From Oscillospiraceae bacterium (GTDB taxonomy: Bacteria > Bacillota > Clostridia > UMGS1810): a DNA stretch of 32,861 bases. The number at the start of each line of letters is the position of its first letter. Position 1 is the stretch's first letter. Position numbers and translations under genes: made by a program. The notes beneath the pieces are model-generated. The model had not been told where the DNA came from. It was given only the letters and a program-made list of their open reading frames with translations, and searched no databases. The stretch covers positions 1-32,861 of the forward strand of contig SVJU01000020.1 in the NCBI GenBank assembly GCA_015068825.1, written 5' to 3'. This document shows positions 8,772-32,861 of this stretch, piece after piece.

Positions 8772-8806
8772 AACATCAAGACCTGCTGAAAGGAAATTGC
8801 CTTTTA
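8772..8806 (-). pseudogene. Relic of the pre-toxin segment (copy C)
   Basis: Read on the minus strand this gives LKGNFLSAGLDV, matching LLRGDFLSAGLDV of the full toxin (copy A) and of copy B. It starts right at the stop codon of the neighbouring immunity gene and ends after about 12 codons. It is a small scar of the module that separates the toxin cassettes. Confidence 0.7.
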
Positions 8807-9160
8807 ATCCCTTTCAATCTCAGCAATGATTTTCAAAGTTTTTTGTCCTACATATTGTATAAACATATTTTTTGTTATTTCGCCATCAAATAATAAAGAT
8901 TCAATAACACTAAATGATATAACTTCATCTGTATATTTATCATTTAATAATAATAAATCTTCAATGAACTGAAATAATTGTTTTAAATATATTTTATTGT
9001 TAAATTTAATCTGTTCTTTAATAAAAGGTGCGAACACATCGCCATAAACAATATGTGACCCAGTGTTATCTCCATCTTGCCAAGAAGTTTCATCATCGTA
9101 TAGTTCTTTTATTTCGGGGAGAGCATATTTTAACCTCAAATTCAATTCTTTACTTGTCAT
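8804..9160 (-). CDS. Probable immunity protein for the adjacent orphan toxin tip
   Basis: A 118-residue acidic, helical soluble protein with no signal peptide. The layout (SHIVYGDVFAPFIKEQI, LKQLFQFIEDLLLLNDKYTDEVISFSVIESLLF) resembles small immunity-type proteins such as the DUF7674 family, from memory and with moderate confidence. The ATG at 9160 has a strong GGAGGG ribosome site. It starts one base after the end of the toxin-tip frame, the usual toxin-immunity order, so it probably neutralises that tip. The exact mechanism is not visible. Confidence 0.6.
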   Translation of the reverse strand: MTSKELNLRLKYALPEIKELYDDETSWQDGDNTGSHIVYGDVFAPFIKEQIKFNNKIYLKQLFQFIEDLLLLNDKYTDEVISFSVIESLLFDGEITKNMFIQYVGQKTLKIIAEIERD

Positions 9161-9161
9161 A

Positions 9162-9626
9162 TTATTTTCCCTCCAATGCATTTTTTATATTTTCCATAAT
9201 TTCAATAGCTATTTTTTCTTCTTCACTGGTTAAGTTTTGCATCTTTATAATATTTTCGAGATTTTTCAAGCGTTCTTTTCCTTTTTGAATATGAGATTTA
9301 CCGCCTATCAATTTTCCAGTCTGTAATTCATATCTGATTGCATCTGCCAATCCACCGTCGCCAATTGTAGCATTTGATCTATAAATTTCATTTATAGCGT
9401 TTTTTAACTTCGGATTGTTGACTTTTGTCAATAATATATCTCTTAGGTAAATTTTTGCATTATCCGTAAAATCATCAACCTTATCAACAGCTTTAACTGC
9501 ATCAATAGCAGCATCAGCTTTATTGATGATTTTAGCGATATCTGCAACTTCGCCGACAAAAGGAATGACACCAAACGCATCAAGACCAGCTGAAAGGAAA
9601 TCGCCCCTTAATAAATCTACGGGTAT
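9162..9626 (-). pseudogene. Orphan toxin cassette: partial pre-toxin segment (copy B) fused to a C-terminal toxin tip
   Basis: One continuous frame of 155 codons without a usable start. It begins IPVDLLRGDFLSAGLD immediately after the stop of the upstream immunity gene, follows the pre-toxin segment of the toxin at 10721-11614 to about 9455, then changes to a different tip containing IYRSNATIGDGGLADAIRYE and GGKSHIQKGKERLKNLE. That tip recalls C-terminal domains of secreted polymorphic toxins in Firmicutes, but its activity is not recognised. It has no N-terminal delivery domain and no ATG before its end, so it is probably silent unless recombined onto the full toxin. A TTG at 9431 could give only the bare tip. 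Confidence 0.65.
9455..9626 (-). repeat. Pre-toxin segment, copy B
   Basis: Closely similar at DNA and protein level to copy A (about 10935-11101), shared from the IPVDLLRGDF codons to the VKAV region. The junctions are at the stop of the upstream immunity gene and at the start of the new toxin tip. Confidence 0.8.
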
Positions 9627-9627
9627 T

Positions 9628-9933
9628 TTAATTTATTTTAACACCATCTACTAAAATTTCTTTTGGAAAGTTATGATAATTTATTAAAAATCCATTACTT
9701 TGTGTAATAAATACAGGAGGATTTTTAAAAATTAAAATTGCCTTAAATGAAAATGACCATAGTTCTTCGCAGGTTTCATTTTCGCAATCGATCTCATCTT
9801 CAAAACAAGTATCTAGTTTCGCTAAAACAGAACTGCCATTTTCCCACAGCAATAACATATTATTTTTATCATATTTATATAAATTTTTTGAAAACTTTCC
9901 AATAATTTTTTCTTCTTTATTATTTAAATACAT
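9628..9933 (-). CDS. Probable immunity protein, orphan cassette
   Basis: A 101-residue soluble acidic protein. The in-frame open region extends to 10107, but the ATG at 9933 has a clear AAAGGAG site 7 bases away, and the upstream part belongs to a broken toxin. Features include LYKYDKNNMLLLWENGSSVLAKLDT and a cluster CENETCEELWSFSFKAI. No family is recognised. The immunity role rests on position: directly after a toxin C-terminal fragment and before copy B of the pre-toxin segment. Confidence 0.6.
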   Translation of the reverse strand: MYLNNKEEKIIGKFSKNLYKYDKNNMLLLWENGSSVLAKLDTCFEDEIDCENETCEELWSFSFKAILIFKNPPVFITQSNGFLINYHNFPKEILVDGVKIN

Positions 9934-9953
9934 CTTTTTCTCCTTTAGCATAA

Positions 9954-10143
9954 TTATGGTCTTGCTGGTACTATATGAGCACCGTCTATTGAATAGTGTA
10001 TTATTCCTTTTGTTGTTTTTTGAGGGATATTTGTTTCTATGTGCAAGAAAATTACTCAAAGCATATAAACCGCCGCTTTTTGTATTTTCAAAATCATTTG
10101 TATCCAAATGTGATGAAACGGATACAATATTTAGACATTTTAA
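9954..10143 (-). pseudogene. Frameshifted toxin C-terminal remnant
   Basis: Two frames join to make a plausible toxin end. The first reads ...LDTNDFENTKSGGLYALSNFLAHRN. The second, shifted, reads ETNIPQKTTKGIIHYSIDGAHIVPARP and stops with TAA at 9954-9956, just before the ribosome site of the following immunity gene. It begins straight after the stop of the previous immunity gene with no start codon. I read it as a degraded toxin tip with a one-base type frameshift near 10045. Confidence 0.5.
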
Positions 10144-10146
10144 TTA

Positions 10147-10707
10147 TTATTCTTCACAATATTCACAACCCATGATAACAATATGAGGGGTTTCATTATT
10201 TCCTATCTCAAAAAATCTCCAGCATTCTTCCGCTTCACTTGTATCTATGAACACATCAATATCATAATTATTAGACAAATTTATGTTTAAGTCTCCATAC
10301 TTATTGACTTGTATAGCTTTTACCAGCAGGGGGCTCTTTGTAAGGTCGAAAATATTTGCTATCTTTTCATCAAACTTATTATGTCCTTTTATATCCCACT
10401 GAAAAGTTTCTTCATAAAAATCATTATCTTGTAACGCAACACTTGGTTTAAAGATATCATCCTGTGTTAATAATATTTTGTTATTAAAGCTTATTCTAAA
10501 AAGTCCATCAATGTGTAATGCATATTTTGATTTTAGAGATTCTTTAACATCAAAAACACCTTCAGCTGTTTTATATACAGTTTTACTTGTAACTTTATCC
10601 CCAAATCCCAAACAGAGCATAGATCCGGTTCTTAGTATTTCATTAATAGGTTGTTCTTTTAGTTGTATTAAATTTTTCATTACCTTATCAAGTTCAATTT
10701 TATTCAT
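10147..10707 (-). CDS. Probable immunity protein of the MuF/pre-toxin toxin
   Basis: A 186-residue soluble protein. The ATG at 10707 follows GGAGG by 7 bases; an in-frame upstream ATG at 10746 overlaps the toxin end and lacks a site. LCLGFGD, KYALHIDGLFRISFNNKILLTQDDIF and AEECWRFFEIG recall a Firmicutes immunity-like family (DUF6188-type, from memory). It starts 13 bases after the toxin stop, which is the standard toxin-immunity arrangement. Confidence 0.62.
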   Translation of the reverse strand: MNKIELDKVMKNLIQLKEQPINEILRTGSMLCLGFGDKVTSKTVYKTAEGVFDVKESLKSKYALHIDGLFRISFNNKILLTQDDIFKPSVALQDNDFYEETFQWDIKGHNKFDEKIANIFDLTKSPLLVKAIQVNKYGDLNINLSNNYDIDVFIDTSEAEECWRFFEIGNNETPHIVIMGCEYCEE

Positions 10708-10720
10708 TTTATATCCTCCA

Positions 10721-11614
10721 TTATTTATTAAACCAACTCTTGGCAAAATCTAATATTTCCTGGTAACCCCAATTTTGTCCATGGATTAAATCATGTAATT
10801 CCCTTTGTTGTTTTGGGGTCAATTTAAGTTTTTTTGCAATACTTCCCGTTTGTTTGTTCTGTGCCTTATTATTGCGCGGAGTCCCTCGCTTTTGTTTATT
10901 TATAATATTGCTTGTCTTTCGGCTAACATTAAAGGTATCTGTTGCTTTGTCAGCTTTATTAACAGCTTTAACTGCATCAATAGCATCATCAGCTTTATTG
11001 ATGATTTTAGCGGTATCTGCAACTTCGCCGATAAAAGGAACAACGCCAAGCACATCAAGACCTGCTGATAGAAAATCGCCTCTTAGCAAATCTACGGGTA
11101 TAGAAACTAAATCGGTAAATGTATCAAACCCCGGTATAAGTGATGCTACTGCAAGAAAATTACTTATTTTATCCAGCACCGATACATTTTCGGTTTCGTT
11201 TGATTTATCGTTAACACTTGAAACAACATTTGAGTTTTCATCTGTTATAAGTATTTCGCATTTGCAGTTTGGGTGAACAACAGGGAAAAACTCATTTTCA
11301 TCAAAATCTTTTATCAAAAATTCTTTGCCGTTCAGCTTTGCGCATTCTTCACAAGCATCATCATTTGCTATTAATTTATATGTATAATATCCTTCTTTTT
11401 CATAATCCCATAATAGCATACAGCTTTTTATTTGTCCACTTAAATTTGTTATTTCGTTTTGGGAGTCATCAACTATTTTTGTAAGTGATTTTTCTAATAG
11501 TGAAGCACTTTGAATGTAATCATTATCAAGCGAAAAAATTCTTGCAAATTCGTTTGTTATAAATTCTATGGTGTCAGCTTTTGATTGCTTGATTAAATTA
11601 TTAAAAACGGATTT
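10721..11614 (-). pseudogene. 5'-truncated polymorphic toxin: MuF-like domain, pre-toxin segment, C-terminal tip
   Basis: The frame is open from 11614 (after TGA at 11615-11617) to the stop at 10721, 297 residues. Its only ATG, at 11419, lies well inside the domain. In order it has a helical stretch, a MuF/phage-head-like zinc motif (C23, C26, H49, C52 and C54 counted from that ATG), a hydrophobic Gly-rich pre-toxin segment of the PT-TG kind (roughly 80-155), and a short basic tip with RGTPRNNKAQNKQ and LTPKQQRELHDLIHGQNW, typical of nuclease-like toxin ends. The start and any export domain are missing, so the gene is probably inactive, unless 11419 is used to make an intracellular protein. 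The tip's enzyme class is not certain. Confidence 0.65.
10935..11101 (-). repeat. Pre-toxin segment, copy A
   Basis: The intact copy of the segment repeated at 9455-9626 (copy B) and 8772-8806 (copy C), all in the same orientation. It encodes the Gly/Val-rich IPVDLLRGDFLSAGLDVLGV through KIINKADDAIDAVKAV region. Confidence 0.8.
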
Positions 11615-11632: not shown

Positions 11633-11682
11633 GTAAAATAATATTTTACAATTTTACTTTTTTTAAAAACATATTGTAAAAT
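11633..11682. repeat. Cluster of ATTTTAC/GTAAAAT heptamers and a 10-bp inverted repeat
   Basis: The heptamer occurs at 11633-11639, 11643-11649, 11651-11657 and 11676-11682. ATTTTACAAT (11643-11652) and ATTGTAAAAT (11673-11682) form a perfect inverted repeat that overlaps the -35 box of the RNA promoter. It looks like an operator. Confidence 0.5.
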
Positions 11683-11702
11683 CTTTTGCAATGTGATAAA
11701 AT
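11674..11702 (+). promoter_or_regulatory. Promoter of the structured RNA
   Basis: TTGTAA (11674-11679), a 17-base spacer and TAAAAT (11697-11702) with the extended -10 TG at 11694-11695. The predicted transcript start is at about 11709, at the first base of the outer RNA helix. Confidence 0.72.
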
Positions 11703-11707
11703 GAAGA

Positions 11708-11863
11708 TGTCACATAGCTTCATATTTTTATATACAACGGAGAAACTAACCTTTGGTAAAAGGTGTTTCTCTCTTTTTCGCGTTTCTCTGTTGAATGTCG
11801 AAGCTGTGTGACAACTGCGAGGGAATACACTTTTTCGTGCGTTCCTTCGGGGACGCATTTTTT
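11708..11863 (+). ncRNA. Structured RNA with switch-like alternative helices, unknown class
   Basis: An outer 14-bp helix joins 11708-11721 to 11800-11813 (one G-U). Inside it, 11735-11746 pairs with 11782-11793 (12 bp, one G-U), or its GAGAAAC (11740-11746) pairs instead with 11765-11771, extending the hairpin 11749-11754/11759-11764. After the outer helix, 11822-11830 can pair with 11837-11845 (antiterminator-like), which competes with the terminator 11838-11857. It may be a free-standing RNA of about 155 bases or a regulated leader of the 53-residue gene downstream. It matches no riboswitch class I can recall. The structures are read by eye and not energy-scored. Confidence 0.65.
11838..11863 (+). 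terminator. Terminator at the end of the structured RNA
   Basis: TGCGTTCC, loop TTCG and GGGACGCA form 8 bp with one G-U, followed by six T. It lies before the ribosome site of the downstream gene, so read-through would be needed to express that gene. Confidence 0.8.
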
Positions 11864-11884
11864 ATTTGTAAAGGAGAAATATTT

Positions 11885-12046
11885 ATGCCTGATTATAAGA
11901 AAATGTATTGTGAGCTGTTTAACGCAGTAACAGATGCAATAGAAATACTTGAAAAAGCGCAAGATAATACCTTGGATTTTTTAATTGAGTCGTGCGAAAA
12001 TGATAATAAAAATTTAGAAAGAAATAAAAAAGAACAAAAATTTTAA
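11885..12046 (+). CDS. Small helical protein of 53 residues, unknown function
   Basis: Begins MPDYKKMYCELFNAVTDAIEILEKAQ and continues with a charged Asn/Lys-rich tail. It is probably one or two amphipathic helices with no membrane segment or signal. The ATG follows AAAGGAG by 8 bases, a strong site. The frame is open further upstream (from 11795), but that part lies inside the structured RNA and terminator. I recall similar short 'DYKxLYxxLFNAxTDAI' proteins as hypothetical genes in Firmicutes, with no known role. The structured RNA and its terminator suggest expression controlled by antitermination. Confidence 0.7.
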   Translation: MPDYKKMYCELFNAVTDAIEILEKAQDNTLDFLIESCENDNKNLERNKKEQKF

Positions 12047-12080
12047 AAGGCTTCTAACCATCAGTTTAGAAGCCTTATTT
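12047..12080. terminator. Bidirectional terminator
   Basis: AAGGCTTCTAA (12047-12057) pairs with TTTAGAAGCCTT (12065-12076), with A-rich sequence on the left and T-rich on the right. It lies between the 53-residue gene and the converging SGNH gene. Confidence 0.82.
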
Positions 12081-24334: not shown

Positions 24335-25336
24335 TTATTTGTTTTCCCACTGCTCAATAAGCTTTTGTGCAATCTGAACTGCATTTGTAGCAGCACCTTT
24401 TCTGATGTTATCGGCAACAACCCAAAGGTTTACGCCTGATTCAACACTTTCGTCGCGTCTGATTCTTCCTACAAATGTTTCGTTTTTACCAGCTGCATTT
24501 AAAGCAAGAGGATATACATTATTTTCTACATCATCTTCAACAACAATTCCAGGTGCTTCTTCAAGTACTTTTTTAAGTTCATCCAAATCGAACTGATTGT
24601 AAAATTCTACATTGATTGATTCTGAATGGCTGTTAAATACAGGAACTCTTACTGTTGTAGCAGTAATTCTTATAGAATCGTCACCAAGAATTTTTCTTGT
24701 TTCGTTAACCATTTTCATTTCTTCTTTTGTGTATCCGTTAGGAAGGAATGAATCAATATGTGGCAGGCAGTTTCCTGCAATCTGATGCGGGAATTTTTTT
24801 GGTGCTTCGCCTTTTAATCCGTTTTCAAGATCCTGATATCCTGCAAGACCTGCACCTGATACTGCCTGATATGTTGAATATACAACTCTTTTGATTTTGT
24901 ATTTATCGTGTAATGGTTTTAGTGCAACCATAGCCTGAATTGTAGAACAGTTTGGATTTGCAATAATACCTTTGTTCCATTTTATGTCTTCAGGATTTAC
25001 TTCGGGAACAACAAGAGGTACTTCTTTATCCATTCTCCATGCACTTGAGTTGTCTATAACAACACAGCCTTTTTTAGCGGCAATAGGAGCAAATTTTTCG
25101 CTTGTAGAACCACCTGCAGAAAATAGTGCAATATCAAAACCTTCATCAAAAGAAGTTTCGGTAAGCTCTTTTACAATATGCTCTTTGCCCATAAAATCAA
25201 CTTTTGTTCCTGCAGAACGAGCTGATGAGAATAGTGTATAGCTTTCTGCCGGAAGTTTTACTTCTTCAAGAACTTTAAGAAAAGTTCTTCCAACCATACC
25301 GGTTGCGCCAACAATGGCAATTTTGTACTTTTTCAT
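24335..25336 (-). CDS. asd: Aspartate-semialdehyde dehydrogenase
   Basis: 333 residues. NADP loop GATGMVG (10-16), catalytic C130 in NPNCST, Q157 and H237 in FNSHSE. It makes aspartate semialdehyde for lysine, threonine and methionine. An in-frame GTG at 25348 overlaps the ribosome site AAGGGGTG, so the ATG at 25336 is chosen. It is the first gene of the operon behind the lysine riboswitch. Confidence 0.96.
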   Translation of the reverse strand: MKKYKIAIVGATGMVGRTFLKVLEEVKLPAESYTLFSSARSAGTKVDFMGKEHIVKELTETSFDEGFDIALFSAGGSTSEKFAPIAAKKGCVVIDNSSAWRMDKEVPLVVPEVNPEDIKWNKGIIANPNCSTIQAMVALKPLHDKYKIKRVVYSTYQAVSGAGLAGYQDLENGLKGEAPKKFPHQIAGNCLPHIDSFLPNGYTKEEMKMVNETRKILGDDSIRITATTVRVPVFNSHSESINVEFYNQFDLDELKKVLEEAPGIVVEDDVENNVYPLALNAAGKNETFVGRIRRDESVESGVNLWVVADNIRKGAATNAVQIAQKLIEQWENK

Positions 25337-25384
25337 AATAAAATACACCCCTTAAAAATTTGTATGTTTTATCTTTTTTGCATC

Positions 25385-25408: not shown

Positions 25409-25662
25409 GCCATAAAACAATGAATAAAATAACAACTTAAATGGCAGATAGCGCAACACTTAATGCCGTTATAAATGTTAAAAACAGCTCAACACTTTAC
25501 GGCGATAAAGTGACAGTTATACGGATATTCTCCGCATACCCAGAAAAAAGATGCAGCAAAAATTTCTTTTCTCTTCGGCGTCTTTTCCTTTCTCATATGC
25601 AATTTAAATGTTTGCTGCAAACACAGTGCACAGGGTACTTTTAAAAAACGCGCCTCTATCTT
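25385..25662 (-). promoter_or_regulatory. Lysine riboswitch (L box) with antiterminator and terminator
   Basis: Read on the minus strand, the leader has the L-box blocks in order: AGATAGAGGCGCG, AAAAGTA, GAAAGGAAAAGACGCCGAAG, CTGGG and ACTGTCACTTTATC. P1 pairs AGATAG (plus 25656-25661) with CTATCT (plus 25446-25451). Just beyond, TCTGCCAT (plus 25441-25448) can pair with ATGGCAGA (plus 25406-25413), whose end is the left arm of the terminator. Lysine binding should hold P1 and release the terminator, switching asd-dapA-dapB off. It fills the gap upstream of asd. An apparent minus-strand open frame here is not a gene. Confidence 0.93.
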
Positions 25663-25672
25663 TAATAAAATT

Positions 25673-32600: not shown

Positions 32601-32861
32601 TACTTGTTAGAACATTCGAAGAAGAAGTTATCGATATCGTTGCATTCGATGACAAAGGTCAGGAAGTAGCTTACGCTGCTGCTGATGGCGATACAGATAC
32701 AGATACAGATACTGATACTGATACTGATACAGATACTGATACTGATACAGATACAGACACAGATACAGACACAGATACTGATACAGATACAGATACAGAC
32801 ACAGATACAGACACAGATACTGATACAGATACAGATACAGACACAGATACAGACACAGATA
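29648..32861 (+). CDS. Large S-layer type protein with three SLH repeats and an Asp-Thr repeat tail (partial)
   Basis: Open from the ATG at 29648 to the window end (1071 codons, no stop). Signal peptide KNLKKVLALVVVFAMMLSTVVFA. Three SLH repeats follow: FADVADDATYAGAIDVLAALGYF..., FADVAADHWATGYIKMANQYGI... and a weaker WPTGYVAVASQIGLLDG.... After that comes a long beta-rich, acidic region of about 800 residues with no recognised domain, then from 32690 a (Asp-Thr)n repeat of at least 28 units. Codon use is rich in GCT, AAC, TAC, GAC and ATC, unlike all neighbours, as expected for a very abundant protein. It is probably the main surface-layer protein, anchored by SLH repeats to wall polysaccharide. 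AAGGAGG lies 10 bases before the ATG. Confidence 0.88.
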   Translation, partial: MKNLKKVLALVVVFAMMLSTVVFAGTFADVADDATYAGAIDVLAALGYFKGDDAGNFNPDATITRAEYATIVCRLLGIADSATGTADFADVAADHWATGYIKMANQYGIVAGYGDGNFGPNDPVKYEEAVKMLVCALGYEPMAVSKGGWPTGYVAVASQIGLLDGVAGAAEGAGAARSLVAVMTYNALDIPVMEQMGFGTEISYEIMKENDDHDKSTILTKVGIYKLGGVIEANSKVAYFGQNKTDIGYVTMNVDDDYDVPVKALNIEAVLNRPAYAKTFAVGNTNAEDLVANRVIVYVEEISSGRYEIKAIELDAASVSTLKIKATDLNPDELKYTESKPYIRYYKEGVTSGDGTKVSLEGNYAATWNNEQVNASFLASNLNDAVAAMVEFIDLDNDNYYDIVKVYEYSHLIVEDVDAEKGVINTYQGTKVDLDIENEDANVTIVDVNGNEVAIEDIADGDVLAMIIGKEGTARASLNLVKTANYDSLDIIVLKASSVTGAVTEYDETVEDGSMTELTIAIDGTEYDVAFIDKGAHNISKIDLQSEGTFYLGISGDIIGFEGDKVTNNNYGLIMSAYTSTNKSVAPQLTVLTKDGSEVTYDVASSLRIVTPAEVENGENDIAAGKYTKVDVKDKMTSDDLKYISNSTWAGVIDDSDTLRNELYAAFGAELDEIATDDQVAAVKARLVTYKLNANNEIVEITPAVAGEADEDVVELGFEATSGKVAYNANGQKLGKYLLADDAVVFDVDFLNPTSSKVSDVSYFVDDSEYEALLYTKNEDGYYGAAVILASDAVFEEGAGLAIVESKTSKLNENEDTVTKVVAYKDGAEVELTFDDEEYTEVYSKVNPEDFAVGTVIMYNADANGIVSKYAVVGQTTVTSSKKTFAFDSDFASTFKADIADGDAFYLGWIETKTKNDANINVIIKDAVAGSTYANTEEGFTVTKANQYTITGTARNTTITNGTYTDGNVDAADYDSNNDLIGYYVLVRTFEEEVIDIVAFDDKGQEVAYAAADGDTDTDTDTDTDTDTDTDTDTDTDTDTDTDTDTDTDTDTDTDTDTDTDTDTDTDTDTD
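32690..32861 (+). repeat. GAYACW hexanucleotide repeat encoding (Asp-Thr)n
   Basis: 28 full hexamers GA(T/C)AC(A/T) plus a partial one, in frame with the S-layer gene and cut by the window end. From 32732 they form a higher-order unit of 42 bases (seven hexamers): 32774-32815 and 32816-32857 are identical, and 32732-32773 differs at one base. Confidence 0.95.

Follow-up and report, generated by a model that had tools for sequence, protein, structure and literature searches.

What kind of RNA precedes the 53-aa ORF found in the window, the 32,861-nt stretch of DNA from a gut Clostridia bacterium analysed here, and how might it govern the expression of that ORF? Reading the segment 11674-12046 from its letters alone, the earlier note had proposed a new switch-like leader or, alternatively, a stand-alone small RNA. 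Each of the elements on which this proposal was built could be located again on the plus strand: an extended -10 promoter with its start on a closing helix (P1, paired over the full 14 bp), an inner helix (P2) whose GAGAAAC segment at 11740-11746, part of strand U, has an alternative partner, GTTTCTC at 11765-11771, within strand M, an antiterminator-like pairing, a terminator followed by six T, and a strong ribosome site with its small ORF (Table 1). The intrinsic terminator T1 sits between the promoter and the ORF, the arrangement of an attenuator. The leader has a predicted folding energy of -62.4 kcal/mol (z = -8.05), and none of 200 shuffled sequences was equally stable.

Table 1. Location of the leader elements and of the associated ORF in the window.
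Feature	Position	Strand	Remarks
Sigma-A promoter	11674-11702	+	-35 TTGTAA at 11674-11679, 17-nt spacer, extended -10 TG..TAAAAT with hexamer at 11697-11702
P1 5' strand, TGTCACATAGCTTC	11708-11721	+	begins at the predicted transcription start; 14/14 pairs with 11800-11813
P2 5' strand	11735-11746	+	12 bp with 11782-11793; 11739-11746 also serves as strand U
Apical hairpin with conserved UUUGGUAAAA motif	11750-11773	+	includes strand M
Strand M, AAAAGGTGTTTCTCTC	11758-11773	+	partner of D; M:D duplex -15.8 kcal/mol in the window
P2 3' strand	11782-11793	+	rival of M for pairing with U
P1 3' strand	11800-11813	+	partner of 11708-11721
Strand D, GAGGGAATACACTTTTT	11819-11835	+	pairs with M in the predicted pseudoknot, or with T5 in the antiterminator
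T5	11837-11845	+	terminator 5' arm; also antiterminator 3' side (with 11822-11830)
Terminator T1	T5 arm 11838-11845; T3 arm 11850-11857; U-tract TTTTTT to 11863	+	
Ribosome-binding site AAAGGAG	11870-11876	+	from sequence
Regulated ORF, 53 aa	11885-12046	+	single relative within the window's family (G004, 35% identity, E 0.004)
Terminator 3' of the ORF	12047-12076	+	

The segment had also been said to match no known class. Indeed, Rfam 15 yielded no family at its gathering threshold, either for the window or for the element in 20 homologue loci; the low-scoring matches in the window (preQ1-II, 17.7 bits versus a threshold of 47) were rejected as chance. A literature search covering main texts found no description of the family. 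Fremin and Bhatt 2021 (PMC8040213) present a large catalogue of candidate structured RNAs from human microbiomes and gut bacteria; passages of its main text describe nothing like this leader, and the catalogue could hold fragments of the family.

BLASTN among relatives revealed partial copies of the window element. Two covariance models were used, R1 comprising 12 copies and R2 comprising 105, both limited to the 3' half (window 11806-11869 for R1, that is, the end of P1, the linker, D, the U-run and the terminator). R1 matched in 15 of the 16 genomes of the window's family, up to 17 times per genome; among 291 Clostridia genomes it matched in 90, with no more than 18 matches in any one. One match (L100), devoid of P1 and M, was treated as false. 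With R2, eight of nine chosen genomes gave 9 to 22 matches and the ninth gave 4. The search thus bore out the expectation that homologues would be found, and the sequence is one copy of a large family, widespread in Clostridia, absent from Rfam 15 and present overall in up to about 20 copies per carrier genome. Its multicopy character was absent from the earlier note: the window's own genome has nine R1 matches, one of which, a weak match on contig C54, looks false. Since the genome of the same-genus relative G001 (93% complete) contains no copy by R1 search, the distribution of the family is patchy. Among 398 genomes drawn evenly across the phylum, four had a match at E <= 1e-4, one of them being the window's own, and the other three were rejected as apparent generic terminators, so that almost no copies were seen in other classes in this sample. 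The phylum-level matches L214 and L215 (outside Clostridia) and L213 (in G045) look like generic terminators.

Mobile-element collections were also searched. BLASTN with the window copy as query found no match in INPHARED or PLSDB. In IMG/VR, two 28-31-base patterns of the 3' module and one 19-base pattern found nothing, and a looser pattern picked up 22 contigs, of which seven hold the RNA. These seven (L240, L244, L246, L249, L257, L258 and L260) are classed as viral, and in most of them a possible ORF follows the RNA, the one in L249 being lipoprotein-like. Scans with apical-hairpin patterns mostly returned coincidences in coding sequences, an exact 18-19-mer being too weak a probe.

Because R1 models nothing upstream of the 3' half, the sequences upstream of its matches provided a blind test of the structure. 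Nearly all of 117 distinct copies carry an upstream strand that restores P1, and a strand M, located about 40-70 nt 5' of the P1 3' strand, that can pair with D over 13-16 bp. Over these copies, P1 strands pair at -21.6 kcal/mol with their own partners versus -12.9 kcal/mol with those of other copies, and M:D at -16.7 versus -12.4 kcal/mol (p = 1e-20). When the own-versus-other test was performed by strand pair, p was 9e-20 for M:D, 2e-16 for U:M, 6e-12 for D:T5 and 5e-20 for T5:T3; the control combination D:T3 showed a small difference only (own -6.2, other -5.6 kcal/mol, p = 0.002). M was also placed by the GGUAAAA motif and D by the U-run, which makes the anchoring independent of pairing. 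Standard pairs were then present at positions 6-10 of the M:D duplex in 68-88 of 98 sequences, more often than in any of 1000 permutations, and were of several types (e.g., TA, TG, CG and GC). The first nine pairs of P1, whose 5' strand was placed by pairing, are kept in 106-111 of 111 homologues (95-100%), again with multiple pair types. A sigma-A promoter, whose start falls on the P1 helix, lies immediately 5' of P1 in 110 of the 111, with the consensus TTGA-N17-TGnTATAaT. Structure prediction for the 5' part places M in an upstream pairing in 98 of 108 copies.

The features first described from a single sequence therefore recur in the homologues: P1 with compensatory changes, the promoter at the same place, and the U:M, D:T5 and T5:T3 pairings. 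The M:D interaction, which the earlier note lacked, is one of the features with the best support across the family; it too shows compensatory changes, and is predicted to be a conserved pseudoknot of 13-16 bp with D lying just 3' of P1. These comparisons support the view that U:M, M:D, D:T5 and T5:T3 would form a mutually exclusive chain. Members whose D reads GGAGUUUGCG have a weak D:T5 pairing; a proposal that the antiterminator fails in divergent members was overturned by the own-versus-other test. An antiterminator that is conserved and mutually exclusive with the terminator, weak in some members, is thus supported by the predicted pairings.

Inspection of the sequences behind the copies showed that most have a ribosome-binding site and a start codon directly 3' of T1. 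The products are small proteins with no Pfam match above cutoff, lipoproteins and secreted proteins, and no common pathway is apparent among the genes. All nine clear members of the DVTGI..CCCDEC family lie directly behind a copy (three in the window's genome and six in G005, of the same family), and so do 10 or more of the 12-13 PRTID-family loci, the exceptions including one further locus with a partial match and one broken gene. The same is true of both members of the window-ORF family, the second being the G004 relative. Since ORF families sit directly behind copies, the RNA is best viewed as a cis leader. In gut Clostridia, the leader class defines a regulon made up of surface proteins and unannotated small proteins.

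About 22 copies have no ORF and carry instead a 30-50-nt tail after T1. The two forms envisaged at the outset, cis leader and small RNA, therefore both occur, with the former in the majority. These ORF-less copies, mostly provided with a second terminator, and the strength of T1 are what one would expect if all copies were stand-alone small RNAs ending at T1 and the downstream ORF were incidental. Such an interpretation is improbable: in most copies a ribosome-binding site and an ORF come immediately after T1, the ORF families are strictly linked to the RNA and the D:T5 antiterminator is conserved, all of which argue instead for the leader. Together with the compensatory changes and the conserved chain of alternative pairings, the ORF linkage upholds the initial idea of a new switch-like leader.

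We propose that the leader is very probably a two-state switch acting in cis by transcription attenuation. Transcription would begin on the first bases of P1, and the nascent strands would compete in the chain U-M-D-T5-T3. In the ON state, M would pair with U, leaving D free for T5; the terminator would be blocked and the small ORF transcribed. In the OFF state, M would pair with D across P1, forming the pseudoknot, T5 would pair with T3 and transcription would end. Duplex energies favour the termination state; these are thermodynamic values, while switching would be co-transcriptional. The strands and their alternative pairings come from the comparative data, and from them we infer the ON/OFF reading and the default state.

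What would set the switch? The tails of the ORF-less copies offer a candidate. They are complementary to the segment of other copies that spans the P1 3' strand, the linker and D, with best duplexes of -30 to -50 kcal/mol, and 20 of 23 tails examined end at a second terminator. Mean pairing energy with other copies was -31.6 kcal/mol for sequences lacking an ORF versus -24.3 kcal/mol for those with an ORF (p = 9e-11). For 8 tails, versus 1.7 expected, the best partner belonged to the tail's own genome, two of the 8 being tandem artefacts to be discounted; the combined p of 3e-11 is overstated, as it includes these artefacts as well as floored values. Many best partners are found in other genomes because the modules share a consensus. 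Pairing purely in cis was set aside, the tail's own module being rarely the best partner. In the window's genome, the tail on contig C9 has the leader on C55 as its best partner out of 175 modules, with a predicted duplex of -46 kcal/mol. It is the sole tail found there, and none for the window's own copy was found in that genome.

By capturing the P1 3'/linker/D segment of another copy, a tail would block the antiterminator and keep its target off. To judge from this complementarity, base-pairing in trans with RNA from paralogous tails may be the most likely input, a suggestion that we make tentatively. With somewhat greater reserve, one may picture an RNA-only network of 10-20 paralogous attenuators per genome, in which some outputs would be proteins and others antisense tails setting another switch. 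The data identify a real multicopy attenuator family outside Rfam with a conserved pseudoknot, and RNA-to-RNA wiring between its copies is plausible as a hypothesis. If tails do act in trans, the family would offer a naturally occurring parallel to the RNA switch cascades of synthetic biology, its pairing code readable from sequence.

Most copies reside in genomes that yielded few tails or none (e.g., G065 and G074); therefore, another input must be allowed for. Possibly, the conserved AAUA and GGUAAAA elements are the target of a ligand or a protein. The leader would then be a ligand-sensing riboswitch or a protein-sensing leader, whose P1-AAUA-P2-GGUAAAA core binds a metabolite, a second messenger or a protein; the bound input would tip the balance between U:M and M:D, the cis switch remaining the same and the tails becoming a side branch. 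The presence of conserved motifs that are unpaired or loosely paired (AAUA after P1, and UUUGGUAAAA) speaks for this explanation, as do the many copies per genome 5' of genes for secreted proteins and lipoproteins, a pattern that resembles known second-messenger regulons. However, conserved unpaired positions are few for a binding pocket, the strands vary freely in sequence while keeping their pairing, no common pathway is evident downstream and the tails are left unexplained. We regard sensing of this kind as a serious possibility, somewhat short of an even chance.

The patchy, multicopy distribution, including the absence from a same-genus genome, the location of several copies close to contig ends and the tandem duplicates might also suggest a dispersed mobile repeat of the MITE or REP type. 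The structure would then amount to inverted repeats only, and the tails to decayed inverted halves. Near-identical copies would be expected of such repeats; the strands of these copies differ widely with pairing kept. Unlike neutral repeats, the copies diverge greatly and yet retain five pairings and the promoter; moreover, they are linked to ORFs and their tails end at second terminators. This origin thus appears very improbable, and the attenuator reading is retained.

Several known systems resemble the proposed switch. Mutually exclusive terminator and antiterminator strands are likewise found in the pT181 repC leader and in synthetic STAR/attenuator circuits (PMC4878617), in which an antisense RNA decides the outcome, as it would here by analogy. 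Unlike in these systems, the switch here is represented by dozens of paralogues on chromosomes, its pseudoknot is large and spans P1, and it is these paralogues that bear the antisense segments. Pseudoknotted riboswitches such as preQ1 and c-di-GMP-II similarly comprise a 5' leader, an aptamer-like domain closed by P1 and a switching strand shared with the terminator, and c-di-GMP riboswitch classes occur in many copies per genome. In contrast to preQ1 and c-di-GMP-II, the present family does not match their Rfam models at the gathering threshold and is carried by pairing strands rather than by a fixed core. T-box, ribosomal-protein and amino-acid leaders also attenuate through competing helices; here no Rfam model matches and the downstream genes are neither aminoacylation nor ribosomal genes.

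Some minor observations concern the surroundings of the copies and the remainder of the window. At least eight copies begin less than 1.1 kb from a contig start (e.g., G000:C25:559, G007:C11:720, G005:C18:395 and G008:C32:460), hinting at repeats or variable loci adjoining them. The whole RNA is duplicated in tandem in L125 (415-477 and 724-786), where the duplication includes the antisense tail, and in L069 (1276-1339 and 1501-1564). On the minus strand of the window, 10721-11419 encodes part of a phage Mu F-like/minor head protein (Pfam PF04233, E 3.5e-07). It is joined to a C-terminal region of unrelated sequence, an arrangement that recalls the polymorphic toxins of the MuF type, and the genes that come next, at 8804-10746, are small. 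A Lysine riboswitch (RF00168, 97.8 bits) lies at 25477-25666 (minus strand), and the genes behind it read as asd/dapA/dapB (24335-25348 and on). The contig end at 32671-32856 (minus strand) holds a simple repeat, read as (SV)n.
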